A stretch of DNA of 36,122 nt from Candidatus Bathyarchaeota archaeon (GTDB lineage: Archaea > Thermoproteota > Bathyarchaeia > RBG-16-48-13 > JAGTRE01): positions 1 through 36,122 of the forward strand of contig JAGTRE010000012.1 of NCBI GenBank assembly GCA_018396415.1. The letters are read 5' to 3'. A model generated the notes under the pieces. It ran no database searches. It saw nothing but the letters and a program-made list of their open reading frames with translations, and was not told where the DNA came from. Positions 23,539-25,334 of the stretch are shown piece by piece. The translations under genes and the position numbers were made by a program. How positions within the stretch are numbered: the first letter of the stretch is position 1; every line of letters starts with the position of its first letter.

Positions 23539-24237
23539 TTGAACTTAGCCTCAACTACCATAGTTGAAGCCATGGATTCTCGATGTGATTCGATGAATGG
23601 TCGAGTTCCGCAGGGATCCGGAGATTTCTTTCTTGATGGCCTACGTGTTCTTAAAGCTAATTGGATTAAAATCTTGATTTTCAACATTCTGTATTTCGGG
23701 GCATTCACTGTCGGAGTCATCTATGGGTTAAGCAATCCTGCACAACAACTCACGTTAGCTCGACTGGTTCAAATAGAACTTCGAAATAATCCCACAAGCC
23801 GAATTGTGCTCGATGCTCTCATGCGTCGAGACATGTTAACAGCTACAGTATTTACATTTATTCACAATCTCATTTATCCAGCGCTTTTAATTTCGACTTG
23901 TGGCGGGCTGCTAATTCTTCCATTAATCCTCAATATATGGCAGTACTTCATACTCGGAGTCATTTTTAGCCCGACTACCATGGCTCACGTTTTCGTATTA
24001 ACTCTATCTTTCCCAGTGCTTCTCATGGAAACTGAAAGCTACGTCTTCGCATCTATAGTGGGATTAAACTTAACACTCGGGTTAATCAAACCAAATCTTT
24101 TGTACAAAGACATGAAATTAACGAGAAAACAAGCCCTTAGGCAATCATTAAATGCTTGCGTAGCGGTCTATATTTGGATAATTACCATTTTACTTGTTTC
24201 AGCCGCAATCGAGATTTTCACTTTAACAGCAATTTAA
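23539..24237 (+). CDS. Multi-pass membrane protein, possibly SpoIIM-like (DUF95)
   Basis: 232 residues. TTG 23539 is preceded by GGAGG at four bases. About 35 soluble residues lead into membrane segments at about 43-62, 108-135, 138-155, 165-180 and 205-228. The pattern (KANWIKILIFNILYFGAFTV, a long loop, then a re-entrant central part and ETESYVFASIVGLNL) resembles archaeal SpoIIM/DUF95 proteins, whose role outside sporulation is unknown. It could be an unrelated integral membrane protein. It follows the ureohydrolase by about 150 bases that hold no supported gene. Confidence 0.55.
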   Translation: MNLASTTIVEAMDSRCDSMNGRVPQGSGDFFLDGLRVLKANWIKILIFNILYFGAFTVGVIYGLSNPAQQLTLARLVQIELRNNPTSRIVLDALMRRDMLTATVFTFIHNLIYPALLISTCGGLLILPLILNIWQYFILGVIFSPTTMAHVFVLTLSFPVLLMETESYVFASIVGLNLTLGLIKPNLLYKDMKLTRKQALRQSLNACVAVYIWIITILLVSAAIEIFTLTAI

Positions 24238-24249
24238 AGTTGCACTTCG

Positions 24250-24618
24250 TCACTTGAATGAACCTTTATCTAGAGTATCCTCCATTTTTCGATACCATTC
24301 TTCGACGATATCTCGAATGAGTTTTTTCACGCGCTCAGCTGGGGTAGCTTCATAGACAAAAAAGTAGCCGCCACGATCAATAATCCTTTCCTTTCTATGG
24401 GCTAATCCTTTACCGACAAGGTTGCCGAGTATTCTTTGCGCCGTCGGGCGGCTTCTTCTAGTTTTCTTAGCCAGATCTTTCACGGTCATTGGTCCACCCT
24501 TCAGTAAGGTAAGGTAAGCACTCAACTCCACTTCTTGAAGTCCCAAAGCACATCGGGCTAAATCTCTTAGCTCAATTCGTGTCGCGGCTAAATGTGACCG
24601 CATTTCCTCCAGAACCAT
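24250..24618 (-). CDS. TrmB-like winged-helix regulator
   Basis: 122 residues: an N-terminal helix, then a TrmB-type winged helix (LGLQEVELSAYLTLLKGGPM, VKDLAKKTRRSRPTAQRILG, LVGKGLAHRKERIIDRGGYF) and a C-terminal helix (ERVKKLIRDIVEEWYRKM) likely to dimerise. There is no sugar-binding domain. It faces the thioredoxin-like gene over a short AT-rich promoter containing an imperfect palindrome, so it probably controls that redox locus and itself. Confidence 0.82.
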   Translation of the reverse strand: MVLEEMRSHLAATRIELRDLARCALGLQEVELSAYLTLLKGGPMTVKDLAKKTRRSRPTAQRILGNLVGKGLAHRKERIIDRGGYFFVYEATPAERVKKLIRDIVEEWYRKMEDTLDKGSFK

Positions 24619-24632
24619 AAAATCAACCGTTT

Positions 24633-24649
24633 GTTTACAATTGATAAAC
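24633..24649. promoter_or_regulatory. Candidate operator of the TrmB-like regulator
   Basis: GTTTACAATTGATAAAC has 5-bp inverted arms (GTTTA/TAAAC) around a seven-base centre. It lies 15 bases before the regulator's ATG and upstream of the TATA elements (24662-24668, 24675-24683) of the divergent thioredoxin-like gene. Autoregulation is inferred from position only. Confidence 0.4.
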
Positions 24650-24703
24650 TACCGTGATAAAGTATAAAAGCATCTTATAAATAAATCTTCCGTCAAAAGG
24701 GGG

Positions 24704-24989
24704 TTGCAAAACGCCAACCATAAAAATTGAAGTATTTTACACCCCTATTTGTCCCCACTGTCCTCACGCAATCGAAGTTGTACGCAAGGTTACTCCACAA
24801 TTCGGCGATAAAGTTCAAATCGAAGAAGTAAATGCCTGGACGCTAAATGGGCAACTCCGCGCGGCAAAGTACCACATTTACGCTGTACCAGCGATCGCGA
24901 TCGATGGGCAAGTGCGTTTTGTCGGGACTCCAAGTGAAGATAAATTAGCTAAAGTCTTGAAAGAAGAGTTTAAGAAGCTAAATCAGTGA
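24704..24989 (+). CDS. Thioredoxin/glutaredoxin-like CxxC protein, start unclear
   Basis: The frame encodes TIKIEVFYTPICPHCPHAIE, a thioredoxin-fold start with the CPHC active site. Then QIEEVNAWTLNGQLRAAKYH, the cis-Pro loop YAVPAIAIDGQ, and a final helix to TGA 24987-24989. It is about 85-90 residues, the size of archaeal mini-thioredoxins. No ATG, GTG or TTG lies in frame after the upstream stop. TTG 24704 joins the frame only if one A in the run 24708-24711 is removed. ACG 24711 or ATA 24720 would be non-standard starts. It could be a recent pseudogene. Confidence 0.65.
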
Positions 24990-24993
24990 AAAG

Positions 24994-25167
24994 ATGTTTA
25001 CTGGGCTTACTGTTGTCATAGTTGCAATAATGATCGTTGCTCCCTTTACCGCTTCATTTGTATCACACCAAGATTAGGTCTATCTGAGCAAGAGCTACAT
25101 TGATGGAAATGCATTCGAGTAAGTTATTAAGAAAGTTATCGAAAACTCAGAGGAGATGAAGGTATAG
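24994..25167 (+). pseudogene. Broken membrane gene of the redox locus
   Basis: ATG 24994 opens MFTGLTVVIVAIMIVAPFTA, a membrane segment, and meets TAG at 25075-25077. The same frame continues as VYLSKSYIDGNAFE, TAA at 25120-25122, then VIKKVIENSEEMKV and TAG. The reading stays protein-like across both stops, so a small secreted or membrane-anchored protein has decayed. It follows the thioredoxin-like stop by four bases. The family is not identified. Confidence 0.4.
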
Positions 25168-25169
25168 CA

Positions 25170-25334
25170 ATGTTGTGTCCGCTATGCAACCCTTGGACTC
25201 TCCTGCTTCTAATAGTAGGTTTGGTTCTAGTTCTTATAGGGGGATACTGGTTTCTCTCACTTGGGATAGTTTTCGTAGTTTTAGCTTTTCTCCTTCCTAT
25301 CCTTCTTCGTTTGAAGTATACAAAAACTAGATAA
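25170..25334 (+). CDS. 54-aa membrane peptide with an N-terminal CxxC
   Basis: From ATG 25170 (AAGG upstream) the product starts MLCPLCNPWT and continues into one long or two short hydrophobic helices (about 11-46), ending in a basic tail KYTKTR. The CPLC motif at the membrane face, directly behind a CPHC thioredoxin-like gene and a broken membrane gene, suggests an electron-relay or disulfide role. That is inference; no family is recognised. Confidence 0.5.
   Translation: MLCPLCNPWTLLLLIVGLVLVLIGGYWFLSLGIVFVVLAFLLPILLRLKYTKTR

Follow-up and report, generated by a model that had tools for sequence, protein, structure and literature searches.

OxsR (HVO_2970) of Haloferax volcanii is described as a regulator of 123 amino acids with one winged-helix domain and one N-terminal cysteine, Cys24, which is required for function, forms an intersubunit disulfide and was aligned with Cys17 of MM_1094, the protein of structure 3r0a; both proteins are assigned there to arCOG02242 (PMC9426492). 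According to the same work it regulates widely through a CG-rich motif, has thioredoxin genes among its targets, and acts by activating from sites 5' of the BRE/TATA and repressing from sites 3' of it (PMC9426492). A second described system is MsvR, a redox regulator found beside redox genes, which is presented as an ArsR-family protein with several cysteines, from methanogens only (PMC9426492), and whose DNA binding is restored by a thioredoxin system according to PMC7278568. On the thioredoxin side, the relevant group is that of the MJ0307-type archaeal thioredoxins, represented by TIGR00411 and by the structures 1nho and 1fo5.

The locus described here lies in the window, contig C12 of 36,122 nucleotides, from a Bathyarchaeota genome of 1.39 Mb in 30 contigs that is rated 96% complete with 3.28% contamination estimated. 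This genome is the only representative of its genus and family among the 256 class genomes of the comparison set. The features of the locus are listed in Table 1, and the original prediction placed the regulator gene, the thioredoxin frame and the two frames that follow it in agreement with them. From the sequence, we consider it rather probable that the locus encodes a thiol-switched regulator–thioredoxin pair, in this lineage with an MJ0307-type partner that may start at ACG. Tail-to-tail with the regulator gene is a gene for a SpoIIM-family membrane protein (23539–24237; PF01944, 33.8 bits), the end of which is 12 bases from the regulator stop.

Table 1. Positions of the features of the regulator–thioredoxin locus in the window
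Feature	Position	Strand	Details
Regulator gene, one-domain TrmB/OxsR-like winged helix	24250–24618	-	122-aa ORF; Cys23 in RCALG
Operator-like inverted repeat TGTTTACAATTGATAAACT	24632–24650	.	Same position as the repeats of class relatives
TATA-like box of the thioredoxin gene, TATAAAA	24663–24669	+	By eye from the sequence
Shine-Dalgarno core AGGGGGT	24698–24704	+	Pairs with the genome's own 16S tail GGATCACCTCCT
CPHC thioredoxin	24711–24989	+	92 aa counted from ACG 24711; motif at 24750–24761
Middle frame	24994–25167	+	27-aa hydrophobic peptide, then TAG 25075–25077 and TAA 25120–25122; last stop 25165–25167
CPLC hydrophobic ORF	25170–25334	+	54 aa; N-terminus MLCPLC

In the domain scan, the regulator was found to consist of a single TrmB-family DNA-binding domain (PF01978, E 3.5e-15, 56.1 bits against a cut-off of 25.6, residues 24–94 of 122), with no match to any C-terminal sensor domain; models for Sta1 and Lrs14 also matched, both under their cut-offs. 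The nearest solved structure is 3r0a, in which a cysteine within KCALN aligns with Cys23, and this cysteine was equated with C17 on the assumption that three residues of the chain belong to a tag. The TrmB-like regulator originally predicted opposite the CPHC thioredoxin is thus borne out and can be refined: with one domain, a length within one residue of that of OxsR and one N-terminal cysteine aligned by way of 3r0a rather than with the OxsR sequence itself, it looks OxsR-like and not like a sugar-sensing TrmB, and it probably senses oxidation. Cys23 is kept in all 42 loci examined, which represent 24 distinct regulators, and since these include four relatives with a non-divergent arrangement, the residue is not special to the divergent one.

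To place the regulator among its relatives, class genomes were searched at a threshold of E <= 1e-10, and it was found in 21 of 256, its own included. Loci were analysed for 19 of the 20 class relatives, leaving out the weakest class match (G086, 32% identity). A scan of genome contigs with an alignment of 7 regulators returned 22 loci, 18 of them repeats of class regulators, and the distinct set comprised the window's own regulator, the 19 class relatives (Bathyarchaeia) and 4 of Jordarchaeia type (Jordarchaeum, two Jordarchaeia and Freyarchaeota). A thioredoxin gene was linked to the regulator in all 23 distinct relatives, directly in 22. All 19 class relatives carry it divergently, with the motif WCGPC in 15 and WCFPC or WCAPC in 3 (L039, L051 and L045); in L042 the contig end falls inside the motif after WCG, as judged by eye. 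In the 4 Jordarchaeia-type loci a WCxPC thioredoxin lies downstream of the regulator on the same strand, either as a direct neighbour about 0.2 kb away (L065, L066 and L084) or, in L064, at a distance of about 1.1 kb and separated from it by a 262-aa ORF. The three partners scanned (L036, L038 and L065) score 109–113 bits against TrxA-type TIGR01068, above its cut-off of 96.8. The profile search carried out on seven genomes as part of this analysis gave one strong match each, with weak extras in three, and neither the regulator nor the thioredoxin gene was found in 11 genomes of the same order at the thresholds used. No description of such a regulator–thioredoxin neighbour pair was found in the literature searched, the main text of the OxsR paper included. 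The families are therefore known, the conserved arrangement is one that we did not find described, and this lineage has a different partner, whose gene lacks a standard start codon. The pairing persists though the partner family changed, and it couples, in uncultured archaea, a dedicated thioredoxin with what is probably a thiol-switch regulator, across a conserved operator-like site.

The partner in the window matches Thioredoxin_3 (PF13192, E 3.6e-14, 53 bits against a gathering cut-off of 24.8), and its best family and structure matches are of the MJ0307 type, including 1nho at E 1.2e-20. Against TIGR00411 it scores 87.2 bits, under the curated cut-off of 92.75, and it is therefore called MJ0307-like rather than filed as a member; against TIGR01068 it reaches 17.2 bits, far from the cut-off given above. 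It further differs from the described MJ0307-type proteins in lacking a standard start and in adjoining a regulator. The regulator's partners in relatives are TrxA-like, and the window alone has an MJ0307-like CPHC partner. Only two matches to PF00085 were found in the whole genome, namely the window thioredoxin and a second CPHC protein. Because the genome is rated as it is, a TrxA gene may have been missed, so it is by inference that an MJ0307-type CPHC thioredoxin has taken the place of the TrxA-type partner in this lineage. The second CPHC protein is encoded on another contig (L003, C4, 3–1773), after the gene for the anaerobic ribonucleotide reductase NrdD and overlapping its end, and is perhaps the electron donor of NrdD.

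As the original prediction had stated, the thioredoxin frame is well preserved and has no standard start. It is open from 24681 (after TAA 24678–24680) to TGA 24987–24989, with no ATG, GTG or TTG upstream of CPHC. The frame is intact across 92 codons, retains both CPHC and the conserved VP, and looks constrained, since its differences from a homolog in G043 amount to 0.66 per site at third positions against 0.34 at first and second positions, and since its codon score (0.39) is comparable to that of real genes. Homologs were surveyed at 39 loci, two of them repeats, which leaves 37 distinct ones; ATG, GTG or TTG was present within 25 codons before the motif in 34, at a distance of 10–13 codons in 32 of these 34. 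The three exceptions are the window, with ACG at 13 codons, L019, with ACG at 12, and L026. L019 (genome G197) is an intact thioredoxin gene in which ACG stands at the position of the ATG of L011, its nearest relative, and each of these two codons lies six bases after GGTGA. In the window the Shine-Dalgarno core likewise ends six bases 5' of ACG 24711, and the duplex before this codon (-10.3 kcal/mol) is the third strongest of 28 positions tested. Among 5,000 random 20-mers, drawn from the window generally and not from upstream of genes, 0.9% reach this value and 0.4% do so with a spacing of 4–9 as well. ACG makes up 0.8% of the codons in the counted window genes.

Loss of one A, or initiation at ACG or ATA, had been proposed to account for this. 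Of these options ACG is favoured, because it lies at a suitable spacing behind a strong Shine-Dalgarno core and at a position like that of the starts of the homologs. The other in-frame codons, ATA in the window and ATT in L019, are listed starts of table 11 and are without that spacing. A TTG at 24704–24706, out of frame with the thioredoxin and followed by the A-run at 24708–24711, could serve as the true start if one A had been lost, but this is disfavoured as the TTG overlaps the Shine-Dalgarno core. That two intact genes carry ACG is suggestive, yet it is no proof that the codon is used, because ACG is among the likeliest single changes of ATG. In an E. coli reporter set, ACG is placed in a group giving 0.1–1.5% of ATG expression (PMC6925171), and editing of ACG to AUG, described for plant chloroplasts, is said not to have been seen in bacteria (PMC9845219). 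Nothing in the present analysis supports such editing in archaea, and a literature search on ACG starts in archaea gave nothing useful. Our tentative reading, to which we give a little under even weight, is that translation begins weakly at ACG 24711 behind the strong Shine-Dalgarno sequence. A recent loss of the thioredoxin start is an appreciable possibility. It is improbable that some Bathyarchaeia thioredoxins truly start at ACG as a built-in and possibly regulated means of low expression, shared by two families of the class, or, at the extreme, that ACG is converted to AUG in the mRNA in a chloroplast-like manner.

The locus as a whole may instead be decaying, the thioredoxin ATG having been lost by one transition and the small middle gene carrying two stops, so that little or no thioredoxin is made. 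The two stops predicted in the middle gene are indeed present, and its codon scores on either side of the first (0.45 and 0.41) are coding-like, the reference range for real 54-codon pieces being 0.17–0.48 (5–95%). Thioredoxin homologs that look broken also occur elsewhere, in family f16, where L024 shows CPYR together with an internal stop and L026 loses the frame downstream. Against this, the window thioredoxin has kept its whole frame, with motif and VP, behind an intact Shine-Dalgarno sequence. Another frame of the middle-frame tail scores nearly as high (0.37), and since the middle frame is without relatives, with no match in the other 255 class genomes, it may never have been longer. Decay of the locus is a possible but less likely reading. 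Less probable still is that ACG reflects an error of the assembly or a variant of the strain, the population having ATG (or a normal start through some other base change): the assembly has the contig number and the contamination noted above, and this genome is alone in its genus and family within the comparison set, but the intact gene of L019, in another genome, has ACG at the equivalent place. Translation from TTG 24704 with a +1 frameshift in the first codons, for which the TTG frame would span eight codons, through an A5 run, to a TGA, is very improbable, as a run of five A is short, the TTG and the Shine-Dalgarno core overlap, and the 34 homologs that have ATG, GTG or TTG need no frameshift.

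The candidate operator of the original prediction was compared with the intergenic regions of the relatives. All 19 class relatives have an inverted repeat between the regulator and thioredoxin genes, mostly TGTTCAA-N5-TTGAACA; this TGTT(C/T)A-type repeat lies 4–19 nt from the regulator start and is followed by AT-rich sequence that appears promoter-like by eye. The window copy is 16 nt from the regulator start and has diverged, one repeat pair differing on both sides (T-A in the window versus C-G in most relatives). Among 72,208 window positions it ranks 2 with a matrix built from the two sites of family f7 and 5 with one built from all 19 sites, but only 53 with the matrix of the 17 f27 sites, which is a poor match. 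Taken by itself the inverted repeat is not significant, since 12% of shuffled versions of the 92-bp gap contain at least one repeat of such spacing, and the case for the site therefore rests on its position and its likeness to f7. In the 4 loci of Jordarchaeia type, no repeat of this kind was matched. A sigma-70 scan, with a model unsuited to archaea, gave 3 sites against 2.8 in shuffles.

In the proposed mechanism, a dimer of the winged-helix regulator would bind the intergenic inverted repeat, and oxidation would join the subunits by a Cys23–Cys23 disulfide, as Cys24 does in OxsR, and so alter DNA binding. In the window, the site lies on the 5' side of the TATA-like box of the thioredoxin gene and about where the core promoter of the regulator gene would be expected if that gene is leaderless, and from this position relative to both promoters the most likely outcome of oxidation would be that the thioredoxin is induced and the regulator repressed. 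The thioredoxin could then reduce the regulator and close the loop, a step modelled on what is described for MsvR (PMC7278568). As far as OxsR is described in PMC9426492, the window regulator differs from it in being linked to one thioredoxin and in having an AT-rich repeat of another sequence. Such a pair would make a compact system for redox feedback in archaea and a natural case of possible ACG initiation.

The two reading frames downstream of the thioredoxin had been taken, together with it, as a three-gene redox set. A conserved three-gene order, and with it a conserved redox operon, is unsupported, given that in the 255 other class genomes the middle frame is unmatched and the CPLC peptide has only 4 marginal matches (E 0.003–0.01). 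The predicted CPLC membrane peptide holds as a hydrophobic ORF, with a codon score of 0.22, a fair Shine-Dalgarno sequence (-9.3) and no Pfam match, and not as a member of such a set. It is possible that this lineage has small genes in both frames, but nothing links either to redox work.

In the same genome, 16S rRNA matches were found as partial, overlapping pieces on contigs C2 (174015–175258) and C11 (29–1095), which represent either two copies or a foreign contig. Thioredoxins similar to that of the window occur in 25 of the 256 class genomes, its own included (E <= 1e-10), and a scan of genome contigs with it as the query gave no match. The homologs whose neighbours were inspected all sit in other gene contexts and not beside such a regulator. 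In f27 genomes, a CPHC or CPYC thioredoxin directly follows a thioredoxin-reductase-like gene (L006, 491–1764, and L016, 581–1761; 279 and 301 bits, under the TIGR01292 cut-off of 343). In several Bathyarchaeia families, a CPHC-type thioredoxin lies between SepCysS (Sep-tRNA:Cys-tRNA synthase) and NadA, these neighbours having been scanned in L019 (221–2699) and assigned partly or wholly by eye in L011, L024 and L026, and in L005 the homolog precedes asparagine synthetase A. Three f27 loci of the regulator (L040, L038 and L045) have it tail-to-tail with a glutamine synthetase gene, as found by scan in L040 (1489–3350) and by eye in the other two.
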